From contig JAIROG010000012.1 in NCBI GenBank assembly GCA_031257675.1, positions 1-36,690 of the forward strand: a stretch of DNA of 36,690 bases. Reading direction: 5' to 3'. The DNA comes from Treponema sp. (GTDB taxonomy: Bacteria > Spirochaetota > Spirochaetia > Treponematales > Breznakiellaceae). Numbering within the stretch: position 1 is the stretch's first letter; each line of letters opens with the position of its first letter. The notes beneath the pieces are model-generated. The model was not told the origin of the DNA and searched no databases. It was given only the letters and a program-made list of their open reading frames with translations. Shown in pieces: positions 5,192-22,642 of this stretch. The translations under genes were made by a program, and so were the position numbers.

Positions 5192-6559
5192 TCACTCCGC
5201 TTCCGCTCTGCTGTTCGTCAGCTCAAAAAATTCTTCCTCCATGTCAACCATCACTTTTTTTACGGTTTCTTTTCTGTCACGATGATAGGCGTCAAGATGA
5301 CCGCTCAGATTGATGGGGGCGGCTGTTTTGACGATCACCTTGTACGGATGAATGAGCTTTCTTGTTCCGAAAACGCCGCCCATGGTCCGATTCGCAAAAT
5401 CCCACAGGTTCTGCACATATTCAACCTGCTGATACAGCGGACTCTCCGCCGCGGGTACCGGCGCACAGCGGAGATACCACACAAAGTCAACTATTTCAAG
5501 ATGACGGCTCGCATGCCACGCTTCGCCCGCATTGAGATCTGCTATTGAACGGTCAAGCTGAACCATGTCATCCAGCGACGCTTTTCCCGCAACGAAGATG
5601 CGATCCCAACATATCTGCCGCAGGCAGTACATTCTGGTAAAAAAATCGCCCTGTTTCGTTACGCCAAGGGTCTTTGCGGTGCGATCCAAACATTTTTCTA
5701 TAAGAGCGTCAACCCGCCCGGTAAAATTCTCCGCGTTCTTGTCGGCTTTTATGCCATACCGCGCTTCGTTCTTTTCAAGGATGGCATCCCTGCACAGGAG
5801 AAACCTCTCTTCAAGTGTCAATACCCGCCCTTTTCCACGGCTTTCCACCCCGACGCACCGCTCAACGCGCCGCAACAGTTTTTCCACCGGCTTTTTTGCG
5901 CTCGCGTTAAAACAATACTGCACCGAGACCGGCAACACTTCAACCGGACACAGCCTGCCGCTTTTTTCAAGCCGTTCCGCCACAGTGAAGCCTATGCGCG
6001 CCGGACCCTGCTCCAGATGAGGCATCCGGTCTGAAAAGTAAGAAACCTGTCCTTCCGGGGCGATGGCCACCGGGTACGGTCCGTCCATCAAAGCCTTGTA
6101 GATGCGCTCCATGCTGCGCGAGTCGAATTTCGCGTGGTACACGGGCATGGCGCCGACCCTCGGAAGGATAAACCGCGCGAGCGTCCCGCCCCAGCGCAAG
6201 ACTTCATATCCATGCACAAACCTAAGGTGGGGCGGAACCGCGCATACGGCGCCCGCTTTTCCGGCAAGCGCCTTGAGGCGGGACAGGGTGAACCAAGCCA
6301 GTATTTGCGGCTCCGCGCCGTTTGGGTGCAGAAAGGCGGCGATGCAACGGCTTTCGTTTTTGAAGGCGCGGGTAAAACTTTCAATCAAATACCCCCCCCC
6401 CCCCCCGTGCGCTTCGATTTTCGCGCCGCCAATGAATTGGCGCAGATACAAGCGTCCAATCAGGCGGCACAGCAACCGCGCCCATAGGGAAACCCGGGGT
6501 TCAGGCACAAGAATCTCAGGCGCGGCTATTGTTACGGGCCGCATATAAGGTGTATGCAT
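5192..6559 (-). CDS. PlsC-like lysophospholipid/glycerolipid acyltransferase with poly-G tract
   Basis: The 455-residue product resembles 1-acyl-glycerol-3-phosphate acyltransferases. The block HPNGAEPQ stands where the catalytic HX4D normally is, here HX4E, and APEGQVSY matches the substrate-binding PEG motif. It is about twice the usual PlsC length, with a long C-terminal region of unknown role. A 15-G run (6392-6406 on the plus strand as C) encodes five Gly just before the catalytic block, near residue 52-56. At 15 G the frame is open; a change by one or two bases would truncate the protein before the active site. It lies between the glycosyltransferase (11-base gap) and znuA (7-base gap). 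The general fold is fairly sure; the substrate is unknown, and it may act on a glycan or lipoprotein. Confidence 0.75.
   Translation of the reverse strand: MHTPYMRPVTIAAPEILVPEPRVSLWARLLCRLIGRLYLRQFIGGAKIEAHGGGGGYLIESFTRAFKNESRCIAAFLHPNGAEPQILAWFTLSRLKALAGKAGAVCAVPPHLRFVHGYEVLRWGGTLARFILPRVGAMPVYHAKFDSRSMERIYKALMDGPYPVAIAPEGQVSYFSDRMPHLEQGPARIGFTVAERLEKSGRLCPVEVLPVSVQYCFNASAKKPVEKLLRRVERCVGVESRGKGRVLTLEERFLLCRDAILEKNEARYGIKADKNAENFTGRVDALIEKCLDRTAKTLGVTKQGDFFTRMYCLRQICWDRIFVAGKASLDDMVQLDRSIADLNAGEAWHASRHLEIVDFVWYLRCAPVPAAESPLYQQVEYVQNLWDFANRTMGGVFGTRKLIHPYKVIVKTAAPINLSGHLDAYHRDRKETVKKVMVDMEEEFFELTNSRAEAE
6392..6406. repeat. Poly-C/poly-G homopolymer (15) inside the acyltransferase gene
   Basis: Fifteen consecutive C on the plus strand read as GGG x5 in the gene, between codons for His and Tyr. 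Tracts of this length are prone to slipped-strand mispairing and are a classic phase-variation element in Campylobacter, Neisseria and Treponema pallidum. The present length is in frame. Confidence 0.85.
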
Positions 6560-16230: not shown

Positions 16231-16371
16231 AGAAAACTGCTGATTTTATTATATATAAAGATAAAGAATTATACGATTTTCTCCAAGAGGTTCCCAGCCC
16301 GGACTCAGACGGCGTATCGCGGCGTAATTCTGTCTACCCGTTGTTTTTTCAGATTCGCCGCTTCACTGCCG

Positions 16372-17662: not shown

Positions 17663-18454
17663 TCAATAGCGGGTTTCATGCCGGCCGACAGTCTTTTCAG
17701 CGATCAATAAATCATTATAATTGTCTATTTCGAACCACCCCCGCTTAATTCTCAACGCATGCAACGCCGCTCCGCTGTCAATAAGCCCTTGCAATAAATC
17801 CGTCATGTACATTTTCCGGTAAACGCGCGTGGTGCGCCAGAGAGGGATATTCGCCGCGCTTCGCCGTTCCGCCTCGTCCGCAAGCGCCACGAGAGACGTA
17901 AGTCCAGTTTGTTGAAACCGCATTAACCCGATATACTGAGACTCGATTCCGGAAAGCGATTTCGCTTTTTGGCCTATCTCAGTCAAGACGCCCTCAGCGT
18001 CAATTTTAAGCGTTTCCGCGTCGCTCAAAGGATCCTCAGAACGTTCATTCCAGTATCCATGCCAATCGTCATCAACAACAACAGACGCCGGATATGATAC
18101 GTCCAGTACTTTTCTCAACACCTCCTCTTCATAAATTATATCACCGTAAGATATAACAATGTCATCCCGCATTTCATCGCGGGCGCACATAAGACTATAC
18201 ACCATATTGGTAGTCTCATATTCTTTATTGAGACAAAATGAGACGTTCACGCCAGACAAATGCTCCCTTAAAACTTCATGTCGGTAGCCGCATACAATCA
18301 AAATGTCTTCTTCCCGAACGCCGCACCGCTTCATTACATCAATCTGGCGGTTCACAATGCTTTTCCCTGAAACGGGAACCATACACTTCGGCATATTATC
18401 CGTTAAAGGACGCAAGCGCGTCCCTTGTCCCGCCGCTAAAATAATAACCCGCAT
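17663..18454 (-). CDS. CTP:phosphoglutamine cytidylyltransferase (Cj1416-like)
   Basis: The 263-residue nucleotidyltransferase opens with the NTP-binding signature ILAAGQGTRLRPLTDNMPK. Further blocks, ETTNMVYSLMCA, ISYGDIIYEEE, VVDDDWHGYW, PLSDAETLKI, IESQYIGLMRF and MYMTDLLQGLI, resemble Campylobacter jejuni Cj1416, as recalled. That enzyme joins CTP and L-glutamine phosphoramide (made by Cj1418) to give a gamma-glutamyl CDP-amidate. A phosphocholine cytidylyltransferase (LicC) would share the fold, but the next two genes match Cj1417 and Cj1418, which argues for phosphoramidate synthesis. It begins 1 base after the amidotransferase gene, so it is co-translated. Confidence 0.8.
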   Translation of the reverse strand: MRVIILAAGQGTRLRPLTDNMPKCMVPVSGKSIVNRQIDVMKRCGVREEDILIVCGYRHEVLREHLSGVNVSFCLNKEYETTNMVYSLMCARDEMRDDIVISYGDIIYEEEVLRKVLDVSYPASVVVDDDWHGYWNERSEDPLSDAETLKIDAEGVLTEIGQKAKSLSGIESQYIGLMRFQQTGLTSLVALADEAERRSAANIPLWRTTRVYRKMYMTDLLQGLIDSGAALHALRIKRGWFEIDNYNDLLIAEKTVGRHETRY

Positions 18455-18455
18455 C

Positions 18456-19058
18456 TTATATTCCCTCCATTAAACTTTGAATTATTTCAATATCCCTTTT
18501 CCGACTTTTCTCCTCCCGTTCGGGATGCCACATGACGCCCATAACAGCATAAGACTTATGCCTCATCGCTTCAATAATCCCGTCGCCGCTTGCAGCCAAG
18601 GGGAGAAAGTCACTTTGGAGTTTTGTGACGCCATAGTTATGATAACTATTCACCTCTGTCTCTTCTCCCTTGAAACGCAAACGATGACGAGCCGCCGTAT
18701 GCCCTTCAACTTTTTGTAAAACCCCTCCAAAAAAGCAATGAATAAACTGCATGCCTCTGCATACGCCTAAAACAGGAAGATTTTCAGCTATTGCATATTC
18801 TAAAAGCCGCCGCTCTGTTTCATCCCGTTCAGGCGCGGCGCCGCCGTATGCGACAAGATCATTGCCTCCGGTAAAAATCAACCCCGCAGGATTCAGCATT
18901 GCAAGAATATCCACCGCAACAGCCGCATGATTCGGCGCCGCAACCGGCGCATAACCGCAATCCATAACAAAACGGCTCCAATTCTGATCAAGGCAATCAC
19001 GGCGTTCTCCGTAGGATTCCACCACCTCCACCCGCTGACTCAATAACACTATTTTCAT
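18456..19058 (-). CDS. Gamma-glutamyl-CDP-amidate hydrolase (Cj1417-like class I glutamine amidotransferase fold)
   Basis: The 200-residue protein has the class I amidotransferase triad: nucleophile Cys in GVCRGMQF, His and Glu in MWHPERE. It lacks a synthetase partner. The N-terminal LSQRVEVVESYGERRDCLDQ and IFTGGNDLVAYGG blocks fit the PuuD/Cj1417 group, which hydrolyses gamma-glutamyl bonds. In C. jejuni, Cj1417 frees cytidine diphosphoramidate from glutamate. Alone it could be read as a gamma-glutamyl-GABA hydrolase; the kinase on one side (13-base gap) and cytidylyltransferase on the other (1 base) favour the phosphoramidate role. Confidence 0.8.
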   Translation of the reverse strand: MKIVLLSQRVEVVESYGERRDCLDQNWSRFVMDCGYAPVAAPNHAAVAVDILAMLNPAGLIFTGGNDLVAYGGAAPERDETERRLLEYAIAENLPVLGVCRGMQFIHCFFGGVLQKVEGHTAARHRLRFKGEETEVNSYHNYGVTKLQSDFLPLAASGDGIIEAMRHKSYAVMGVMWHPEREEKSRKRDIEIIQSLMEGI

Positions 19059-19071
19059 CTTGCCCCTCGCA

Positions 19072-21231
19072 TCACTTGATTACTTCCACTTTTTTGAGCG
19101 CACAATCCAACTCAAGATATTCCGCCTGCGCGATCCGGTTATAGAGCTTCTCCCCCGCTCCAACAACAGCGGGAAGCGACAATTCCCCGGCGCGGATCGA
19201 CATATGCGAATTTGCGCCGCCGTATTTTGTAATAAATCCTGCTATATTTTTTGAAAATATCCAGTCATAGCCGGGATCCGCGCTTGGTATCATCAGAATG
19301 GAGCCTTCCAACTCGCTGTCAGTCTCAAAACAGACCGGACCCGCGGCTTTATTCAACGTGATAAAATTGGGGGAGGCGTCATCCAAATGGAAATAATAAC
19401 AATCATCCGGCTTTGTGATTACCGGCGGCATGGTAAATCCCAGCGTGTCTTGGTGGCGTTCCTTCCCTTGCGCTATTGATTTTCCTATGCTGTCGCCCAC
19501 ATCCTTTTCAGAATTATACAACCCCTTCCATATTTCAATATCCATATAAGAAAGCTCTTCCTTGGCAAACCCGCATTCGGATCCGATCTCGCCAATCATT
19601 ACGAGCGCGTCGGAAACGTTTTTTGAAAATACAAATTTCGAATATTCACGCCCTTCTATGGCGCCTTTCAAAAACTTAAAGAGCGACAACACATCATCAG
19701 ACAAATCAACCTCTTTTAGCAGCGTTCTAATGTGTTCCAACTGGGAAACCGTCACACGGAACTCCCGCCCGTATAACGCCGTATTTCTCGCGTTTTCCCA
19801 ATTGAAGTAGCGATCCGGCGCTTCGTCATACCGGGGAGAGCATATATCATACATCCCGGGCCGCAAATGCCCGTATTTATTCAAAAACGCTTCTTTCCTT
19901 AATTGAGCGAAGTCTTCCGTCATATTCGTACTGACCGTATTCAGACTGGCTATATACCCGTGATATTCTTCCTGTGAAAATACTCCGCAGGAAACAAACG
20001 ATTTCAGCATCTGCACCGCGACAAATCCGGCCCGCGCAAGCCCGGCGAACGGCAGAGTCCCATAGCGTCGGCAGTCCTCCAGCAGCCAGTATACTTTTCC
20101 AATGCGGCTTAGATCGCTGCTCATTATTTCCTGATGGCGCCGCTTCAGAATATCTATCTTGCTGGCGTCCGCCGTCCACAGTCCGTTGCTCATGTCAATA
20201 ATACGATTAGTCAAGTCCCTCAAACTTTCCGTCAGCATCCGGCATTCCTCTTGGCTAAAGCCGTACTTCCGCAACACCTCCACCCGTTCCCGCAAATCAA
20301 ACGTGTAACAAGAAAATATGATTTCAAATTCAACTTTATCGTGCATTTCAGGATGTTCTATCAATTGGTTTAAGTAATAATTCACCAGTTTATCCGCCAA
20401 ATCTGTCTCTATGCTTTTGGGAATGAATGAATTGAAGCTCACTCTGGCGTCTATATACGGCAATCCCGCAAAATCTATTATCAACGGAAATGAACGCAAG
20501 TCTTTATAGCCATAGTTGTCCCGCTGATACGCCCATGTCCCGTCTGTAACCAAATTTTTATACAAGGACAACGCCAGCGGTTTTGGACGCACTCCGACAA
20601 TTTCCGCTGGATTCCAATCAGGCATAACGCCGTATACCGGCCTATCCCCGAAAATATACGGTTTCTTCCCCAAACTTTTCCGTATATACCTCGCAGTCCT
20701 TTTCAGGATCGCTTCTTGCCTGGCAATATCTTTGCAGACGCGCTTCATAACCAACGGCCTGACCTGCAATATGTACACCTCTTGATTGGCGGAAACCGCG
20801 AATTCAATATCCAACGCTTGGCTCCGAAAGTGCTCCGCTATTTCTTCAGCCGCCCCTATCACCTTGTCCAGAATGGGAAAGCCTGTCGCGCCTCCGTATC
20901 CTTTAAACTGGTAAAAGATTTTTAGATCAGTTCCCGATCCTGATGTAACTGAAGACGTCGAACCGGTTTTATCATCATAATTAACCACATAATAATTTCC
21001 GCCCGTATTGGGATCCATCGTAAACAGCACCCCGCTTAATGCGACATCCCGCAACATAGGCTGAATGAACACCTCATCCTCCGCTGTTTGCCGCTCTCCA
21101 TACGAAGCTATCACCCGTTCCACCGCATCGTTTACGCCTTGCTCTCCACGTACATGCAACACCGACTCATACATGCCGGCTTTTGACTCCTCTCCGGTGT
21201 CTTCGCTTATGGCGCTCGACCGTACTATCAT
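19072..21231 (-). CDS. L-glutamine kinase (Cj1418-like, PEP-synthase fold), main part
   Basis: The 719-residue ORF covers all but the N-terminus of a PEP-synthase-like kinase. The ATP-grasp part starts at once with IVRSSAISEDTGEESKAGMYESVL and ends with LDIEFAVSANQEVYILQVRP. A central domain includes GVMPDWNPAEIVG, and the C-terminal swivelling domain has the phospho-carrier His in GGANSHMSIRAGELSLPAVVG (His about 676). Cj1418 of C. jejuni makes L-glutamine phosphoramide from ATP and glutamine and is about 770 residues; 60 + 719 residues here match that. The ORF is intact to the stop. Its ATG directly follows a TAA that ends the upstream 60-codon part, in the same frame. The poly-G tract 10 bases upstream may act as a ribosome binding site. 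Confidence 0.78.
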   Translation of the reverse strand: MIVRSSAISEDTGEESKAGMYESVLHVRGEQGVNDAVERVIASYGERQTAEDEVFIQPMLRDVALSGVLFTMDPNTGGNYYVVNYDDKTGSTSSVTSGSGTDLKIFYQFKGYGGATGFPILDKVIGAAEEIAEHFRSQALDIEFAVSANQEVYILQVRPLVMKRVCKDIARQEAILKRTARYIRKSLGKKPYIFGDRPVYGVMPDWNPAEIVGVRPKPLALSLYKNLVTDGTWAYQRDNYGYKDLRSFPLIIDFAGLPYIDARVSFNSFIPKSIETDLADKLVNYYLNQLIEHPEMHDKVEFEIIFSCYTFDLRERVEVLRKYGFSQEECRMLTESLRDLTNRIIDMSNGLWTADASKIDILKRRHQEIMSSDLSRIGKVYWLLEDCRRYGTLPFAGLARAGFVAVQMLKSFVSCGVFSQEEYHGYIASLNTVSTNMTEDFAQLRKEAFLNKYGHLRPGMYDICSPRYDEAPDRYFNWENARNTALYGREFRVTVSQLEHIRTLLKEVDLSDDVLSLFKFLKGAIEGREYSKFVFSKNVSDALVMIGEIGSECGFAKEELSYMDIEIWKGLYNSEKDVGDSIGKSIAQGKERHQDTLGFTMPPVITKPDDCYYFHLDDASPNFITLNKAAGPVCFETDSELEGSILMIPSADPGYDWIFSKNIAGFITKYGGANSHMSIRAGELSLPAVVGAGEKLYNRIAQAEYLELDCALKKVEVIK

Positions 21232-21414
21232 TTAATAAACACCCCCCCCCCCCCCCGAATCGCCAGTCCAACCCTCCGCCGCTACCTTTTCCAAGACGCC
21301 ATCTTTATTTTCACGCCATTCTTTAATGGTGAAAATAACCATCGGCAAAATACGCGCTGATGTTATTTTGTCCCGTAACGCTTGGAGCGTCATGGCTTTT
21401 GTGCTGTTCGCCAT
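21232..21414 (-). CDS. N-terminal segment of the L-glutamine kinase, separated by poly-G and a stop
   Basis: This 60-codon ORF has the strong ribosome binding site AAAGGAGGAAAAATA before its ATG and encodes LQALRDKITSARILPMVIF and IKEWRENKDGVLEKV, the kind of N-terminal strand-helix that precedes VRSS in Cj1418-type kinases. It then runs through the G tract (GGGGG) to VY and a TAA immediately before the ATG of the main ORF. It is therefore most likely the true start of the kinase gene. Either the TAA is a nonsense change, or the protein is made as two chains by stop-start coupling. See the finding on the tract. Confidence 0.65.
   Translation of the reverse strand: MANSTKAMTLQALRDKITSARILPMVIFTIKEWRENKDGVLEKVAAEGWTGDSGGGGGVY
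21242..21256. repeat. Poly-C/poly-G homopolymer (15) at the kinase split
   Basis: Fifteen C on the plus strand read as G in the gene. With 15 G the upstream ORF ends at TAA touching the downstream ATG. With 14 it would end at a TGA overlapping that ATG. With 16 it would run past the ATG out of frame for about 20 codons. The tract is the same length as the one at 6392. Confidence 0.85.
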
Positions 21415-21498: not shown

Positions 21499-22642
21499 GG
21501 GGTGTAATACCCATGTGCGTTTACTTAGGGACAAGCAGCCTATAAAGCGCCGAGCCGTTTTCTTTTAGTATTGGCGCATAGAACCGCAACTTGATGTATA
21601 TTTTCTAACAGATCCATGAAGGAGATGGTCTCAAGAAGTATATGTTTTACCACAACCAACAGGAGCCGTTGTTCATTCCATAACGACCACGCTTTATCCG
21701 GAACGCTTCCCTGTAGAGGGGGAAAAGCGCCCTTTGTCTACCCACGTTTCACAAAGGGGGCCGCCGATAACAGTTTCCCGTAACCATACGCGGGCGCTCG
21801 CTTCAACACGCGCCGGTATCTCATAGTATTTAAACAACGACTTTATCCGCTTGAACGCCAACTCTATCTGCCGCCGGCGCCGGTATACATCCAGTATCAA
21901 TTCAGTGGCCGCTTCCCGTATTGACGTAACTAGCGCCACATACCGGTTATAGCGCCGTGCCCAACGCTTTGTCCCCCTGTTTCCTCATCCGGGTCTTCCT
22001 CAAGCTCTCAAGACCTTTTTCCTCCGCTTCTTTCGTTTTCCGCAACACATAAACCGTAACGGTTTGTATCCCCCCTCATATTCATAATACAGCCCTTTGT
22101 TCCAAAGCTCTTGAAATTACTAACCTTCTCTCCCTGTTCCGTCCCGGTCAGCGCCATCTCCTTCATCCCCAGATCAAACAGCCCTATCGCGTAACACGGC
22201 CGGCAATCCGCCTTGTCGCTCCCGCGCGCCGGTTCGCCGCCAGCGTCTGCCAGATACGCCTTCCGCTCCCCAAGCCCATCCCGGCGCTTCCCGGATCGCT
22301 CGGTTGTTCCGGTATATGCTTTCACACAGCCGCCGAAGCCATTCCCCGCGCTTCTGAAACCTCCTGAATACCGCTTTCTTGCTTATCGAACAAACATCGG
22401 CTAGCTGTAATAATGCCGCAGTCCCGCTAAAGGATTTCCCTTCGCTCAGCCGCGGTAAATCCAGGGCGTTTTTGATTTCCCGCCCCCGTCCGTACCAATG
22501 CCCCAAGCTCTTTTGCCTTGTCTTCCCATCCTTCGGGCATGACTGACAGCAATCGCTTAAAACCGCTTGCTCCCCTCTCATTTCTTGAGCTTATCATACC
22601 TTTACGGCTTTGGCAAGTAAACGCATATGGGTATTACACCCC
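21499..22642 (-). mobile_element. IS4-type insertion sequence, decayed, with 28-bp terminal inverted repeats
   Basis: The left end GGGGTGTAATACCCATGTGC... (21499-21526) and right end (22615-22642, reverse complement) match at 27 of 28 bases. They bound a 1144-base element. No target-site duplication is visible at the flanks. It sits 85 bases upstream of the kinase ATG and so lies across or beside the expected promoter of the phosphoramidate genes. Confidence 0.8.
21694..22581 (-). pseudogene. IS4-family transposase, frameshifted
   Basis: Fragments in three frames of the minus strand reconstruct a transposase. The N-terminal part (SFSGTAALLQLADVCSISKK, RRFQKRGEWLRRL) is near 22300-22470, a middle part (ALTGTEQGEKVSNFKSF) near 22100, and the C-terminal IS4 signature YRRRRQIELAFKRIKSLF near 21830-21890. 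The last has the correct Y-2-R-3-E-6-K spacing with the catalytic Glu. At least two frameshifts separate them, so the enzyme is inactive. Confidence 0.8.

Follow-up and report, generated by a model that had tools for sequence, protein, structure and literature searches.

The kinase locus lies on the minus strand of the window, by which we mean the whole stretch of 36,690 nucleotides that was analysed, and the DNA comes from an uncultured spirochaete of the Treponema group. The features are listed here in the order in which they are read on that strand:

21789-22642, minus strand: transposase-like remnant of an insertion element, upstream of the kinase; contig C58 has a copy at its end, past the formyltransferase gene (L071 2118-2846)

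21422-21428, minus strand: Shine-Dalgarno sequence AAGGAGG of the first start, read from the sequence (duplex with the anti-Shine-Dalgarno −11.6 kcal/mol)

21232-21414, minus strand: N-terminal fragment of 60 codons plus TAA, residues 3-47 of which match positions 11-55 of the family model NF004508, including the invariant TKAxTL motif

21242-21256, minus strand: G15 homopolymer tract, from the sequence and the count of runs in the window

21229-21234, minus strand: stop-start junction in which TAA touches ATG, from the sequence and an in-silico length series

19072-21231, minus strand: main part of the kinase, beginning at ATG and 719 codons long, covering the remainder of PPDK_N (ATP-grasp) and the PEP-utiliser mobile domain (NF004508 positions 61-788)

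18456-19058, minus strand: class-I glutamine amidotransferase, gamma-glutamyl-CDP-amidate hydrolase-like (Cj1417-like; 133 bits to NF045546, under the cut-off of 250)

17663-18454, minus strand: MobA-like nucleotidyltransferase, Cj1416-like in position and size, from domain and profile matches

6392-6406, minus strand: second G15 tract of the window, in the open reading frame 5192-6559, in frame at 12, 15 or 18 G and absent from alignable orthologues

On the minus strand AAGGAGG is followed by AAAAATA and the ATG at 21414, from which 60 codons containing the G15 tract run to the end of the N-terminal fragment at GWTGDSGGGGGVY. The tract is followed by TGTTTAT, the TAA (21234-21232) and the ATG at 21231. 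On re-reading, the initial annotation was exact in its coordinates, its count of 15 G, the strong ribosome binding site at 21414, the contact of TAA with ATG and the 719 codons. It had also put the G run 10 bases before the second ATG as a possible Shine-Dalgarno; that spacing, from the last G of the tract to 21231, is correct, and the duplex of the run with the anti-Shine-Dalgarno was calculated at −14.3 kcal/mol, compared with −11.6 kcal/mol for the site of the first start. The window contains two runs of at least 15 G or C where 0.00007 would be expected under a first-order model, and the longest other run of G or C is 7. It should be noted that the length of the kinase tract comes from one assembly and may be off by 1 or 2.

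We varied the length of the kinase tract in silico from 11 to 19 G and followed the reading frames. At 12, 15 or 18 G the upstream frame ends at the TAA touching the ATG at 21231, at 11, 14 or 17 G it ends at a TGA overlapping this ATG, and at 13, 16 or 19 G it passes the ATG and ends around 20 codons further on, giving 81-83 residues in total. None of the lengths from 11 to 19 G fuses the two parts of the kinase, because the TAA sits in the kinase frame. Both the earlier statement that slippage cannot join the parts and the frame outcomes given for 15, 14 and 16 G were thus reproduced, and the latter hold modulo 3. The tract shares with contingency loci a homopolymer far above chance in or near a gene, and shows no on/off change of frame at 11-19 G; because of this second result we would not class it as a working contingency locus. 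A role in a promoter was considered and rejected, as there is no TATAAG box upstream of the tract and a TATTAA lies too near the ATG to serve it.

Both parts of the kinase matched one family model in a profile search, NF004508/PRK05849, the first at positions 11-55 and the second at 61-788. The whole locus covers positions 10-788 with one TAA inside and scores 934.9 bits, the main part alone scores 899 bits, and both exceed the curated cut-off of 501 bits. A profile search of the genome found the locus to be the sole full-length match to NF004508, so that the gene is single copy. Within the main part are the domains PF01326 (PPDK_N, ATP-binding) and PF00391 (PEP-utiliser mobile), with the conserved GGANSHM motif present and H737 invariant in all 46 aligned sequences; the first part is likewise invariant at K6, T9 and L10 (46/46). 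The chain from TKAxTL to IVRSSA is not a single unbroken one in the window, where TAA and ATG divide it. The family includes the L-glutamine kinase Cj1418 of Campylobacter, and the split gene is a predicted L-glutamine kinase of the Cj1418/PRK05849 type. A glutamine kinase split in two had been proposed by the initial annotation, and this is borne out by the single model which spans both parts around the TAA.

We searched 39 genomes for the kinase, namely the window's own and those of relatives, 12 of them from the same genus. Only one other genome of the genus gave a strong match, Treponema sp. MAG Ct408_bin93 (G004, locus L097; 87% amino-acid identity), where the kinase is a single open frame without a tract; a comparison with relatives lacking the TAA, which had been proposed as a check, therefore finds an uninterrupted gene in this sister species. 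The sister reads WGKDS-V-IVRSSA at the point where the window reads WTGDS-GGGGGVY, stop, M-IVRSSA, a net difference of +24 bases. All 44 homologues listed run from TKAxTL, or close variants of it, to IVRSSA uninterrupted and in one frame, and no split kinase was found among these 44 or in two close relatives. The homologue of Bacillus renqingensis (L119 6001-8310) has one stop codon within its translated matched stretch. In a predicted structure of the read-through chain (pLDDT 87.9) the first 46 residues were modelled as folded within the domain and the insertion (residues 53-57) formed a disordered loop (pLDDT < 50), preceded by a helix and followed at once by the IVRSS strand; the nearest solved folds to the modelled chain were rifampin phosphotransferases and other ATP-grasp enzymes. 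The 719-residue chain is probably inactive by itself, because the invariant residues of the nucleotide-binding (ATP) lobe which the first part holds would be missing from it.

We also compared the evolution of the two parts. Relative to the sister species, dN/dS was 0.13 for the main part and 0.30 for the first part. With outgroups, the amino-acid changes on the branch of the window vs that of the intact sister numbered 6 vs 5 in the first part and 16 vs 23 in the main part, with 2 vs 2 at conserved columns. The N-terminal part has 66% amino-acid identity to the sister, compared with 74-96% for equal-sized blocks of the remainder, which could mean relaxation; this part is also variable family-wide. 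No further lesion was found in the 2157 bp of the main part or the 159 bp of the first part. Because both parts evolve under constraint like an intact gene, the break would appear to be recent, or else not fully inactivating, with the parts still working.

The amidotransferase and nucleotidyltransferase genes downstream of the kinase are both intact, and from their sequences the three genes would make up the set expected for phosphoramidate synthesis. The cluster of the sister species also encodes a CDP-glycerol-transferase-like protein, a formyltransferase and a nucleotidyltransferase-aminotransferase fusion, a content which suggests that the cluster decorates a surface polymer. In the window's genome the remainder of the cluster sits on a different contig. 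Copies of the transposase-like remnant flank both halves of the cluster, as would follow from an insertion-mediated rearrangement or from an assembly join, and the gene order upstream of the kinase, where the join passes through the remnant, may reflect a rearrangement or be chimeric. The formyltransferase gene carries a C tract at one position in both species, C16 in the window's genome (L071 1521-1536) and C14 in the sister (L032 795-808); it is out of frame at both lengths, a length of 15 would be open in both, and the frame past the tract is conserved.

Tracts of this kind are common in the window's genome (2.37 Mb), which has around 60 G runs of at least 11; a few of these, at contig ends, look artificial, and around 50 tracts are internal. 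The lengths of 45 well-flanked tracts form a sharp peak at 14-16, and no runs of 8-10 G were found in the sampled loci of this genome. Tracts of at least 12 occur in all 12 genomes of the genus (20-179 per genome) and in G021, from another genus of the same family (n = 142), compared with 0-3 in most members of the order's other families. Seven tract positions are common to the window's genome and the sister species, with different lengths at six of the seven, which agrees with the initial idea of a tract of variable length. Around 12 tracts of the window's genome bridge two long open frames, roughly half of them in frame and half out, and among the Pfam matches at genes with tracts are glycosyltransferases and a DNA methylase. 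The genome encodes MutS. Many of these tracts look like on/off switches, with the marks of ordinary simple-sequence contingency genes.

TATAAG was found within 60 bases upstream of the 45 tracts 7 times (0.6 expected), so that some of the tracts may directly follow the −10 box of a promoter. Beyond a preceding pyrimidine and A/T-rich bases after the run, the 45 tracts have no common flank, and we rejected the idea that a mobile element carries them. Comparison of filled and empty sites suggests instead that tracts grow from G/A-rich sequence, for example from AGGGGAAGGG or CGGGAGAACG to G15. As an idea only, 15 G is the shortest run able to form a three-layer quadruplex with one-base loops. 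The gene with the second tract of the window (5192-6559) has a G16 tract elsewhere in its G003 version, where the gene is split by it.

A stop in the downstream frame with an immediate restart was found at the kinase and at no other tract checked. Three candidates were rejected: L081, where comparison with the sister species gives another coding frame and hence an ordinary off state; L064, which sits at the 3′ end of its gene; and L056 as an interrupted gene, since the relative L233 shows a junction of two glycosyltransferases there. At this last junction (L056 ~1497-1511; C28 ~16268-16282) a G15 replaces the Shine-Dalgarno of the relative. With 15 G the first glycosyltransferase ends near the start of the second, and 16 G would fuse them into a frame of 769 residues.

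The reading that we favour, and consider rather probable, is that a poly-G tract arose inside the kinase gene and that the allele is locked off, at best yielding a truncated chain. A tract of the genome-wide contingency-locus type would have arisen in the 5′ part of the single-copy L-glutamine kinase gene and, together with the bases that follow it (TGTTTATTAA), would have introduced a Gly-coded loop and a stop codon in the linker immediately ahead of the conserved IVRSSA strand. In the assembled state a 60-residue stub would be made, some ribosomes may restart at 21231 to give the 719-residue chain without the start of the ATP-binding lobe, and the enzyme would be off or nearly off. Slippage would alter only the distance from the end of the first frame to the restart and could not turn the enzyme fully on; because the stop lies in the kinase frame, the allele would stay locked off until a second mutation. 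Two points count against a locked-off allele. The restart is well placed for translation, with the G run as a possible Shine-Dalgarno and the stop touching the ATG, and the first part keeps its invariant residues at a dN/dS of 0.30, which suggests that it is not simply dead.

Plain decay of a pseudogene, with an incidental tract and an operon being lost as a whole after a rearrangement by the insertion element, is consistent with the remnant directly upstream, with the rest of the cluster being on another contig and with a stop that slippage cannot bypass. We nevertheless regard such decay as unlikely, given that neither part has another lesion, that constraint persists and that both downstream genes are intact.

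The initial annotation had proposed a possible coupling switch or an enzyme of two chains. Were the 60- and 719-residue parts both made and able to assemble, the number of G (15 or 14 vs 16, modulo 3) would set the level of reinitiation, and such an arrangement would fit the TAA touching the ATG behind a possible Shine-Dalgarno, the modelled position of the break in a loop, the lack of excess amino-acid change in either part on the window branch and the comparable layout of the tract at the L056 junction. However, the 44 homologues listed and the two close relatives have no split, the sister species has no tract at the kinase, and the break cuts the ATP-binding lobe and leaves the invariant TKAxTL on a 60-residue peptide, so that we think an enzyme of two chains improbable. 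Rather doubtful too is a split kinase whose two chains come from a single message, with the G count both supplying the Shine-Dalgarno and fixing the end of the upstream frame, so that slippage would adjust how much large chain is made instead of switching the frame. The coupling and two-chain proposals gained no positive support, with the sister gene intact, invariant residues stranded and the arrangement seen at no other tract checked. An assembly or sequencing error at the homopolymer, the true sequence having no stop or another tract length, is very unlikely: the assembly is in 133 contigs and 83% complete, and some very long G runs, at the ends of contigs C11 and C68, look artificial, but the internal tracts are flanked by unique coding sequence, seven of them have counterparts in place in the sister genome, which was assembled separately, such tracts also occur, in small numbers, in near-complete and one-contig genomes of the family, and a homopolymer error would not create the stop, which stands in non-repetitive sequence (TGTTTATTAAATG).

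The allele can be set beside three known systems. The poly-G tracts of Treponema pallidum tpr genes are generally described as acting via the promoter region. Such tracts lie upstream of tpr genes, e.g. TprL (PMC7864442). The likeness is of a spirochaete with a G homopolymer near a gene start; however, the kinase tract is inside the coding sequence and we recognised no promoter-like arrangement. Campylobacter genomes have many poly-G tracts, with a length peak at 9-10 (PMC6321876, PhasomeIt). The window's genome resembles them in its dozens of G tracts, many within reading frames and varying in length between relatives, and differs in its peak at 14-16 and in a kinase tract that gives no on/off change of frame. 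The third system is the O-methyl phosphoramidate pathway Cj1415-1418 of C. jejuni, with the same kinase family and with the amidotransferase and nucleotidyltransferase next to it, as in cj1416-1418. Poly-G phase variation touches the pathway there, where the phosphoramidate transferases cj1421/cj1422, and their 81-176 orthologues with polyG:C tracts, are phase variable (PMC3907429). In the window, unlike in C. jejuni, the tract is within the kinase itself, before the IVRSSA strand, and with the stop in frame slippage gives no on state.

We found no description in the open literature of phase variation in termite-gut spirochaetes or their relatives. The relation of this organism to the termite gut is presumed from its sister, the MAG Treponema sp. 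Ct408_bin93, and the record series to which that MAG belongs. Our results point to a large complement of poly-G switches in uncultured spirochaetes akin to the treponemes of termite guts. It reaches genes for surface decoration of the phosphoramidate type, a pattern shared with the poly-G tracts of Campylobacter. In the kinase allele such a tract has apparently failed as a switch or turned into something different, and the allele could serve to test whether tract-dependent translational coupling can take the place of frame switching.
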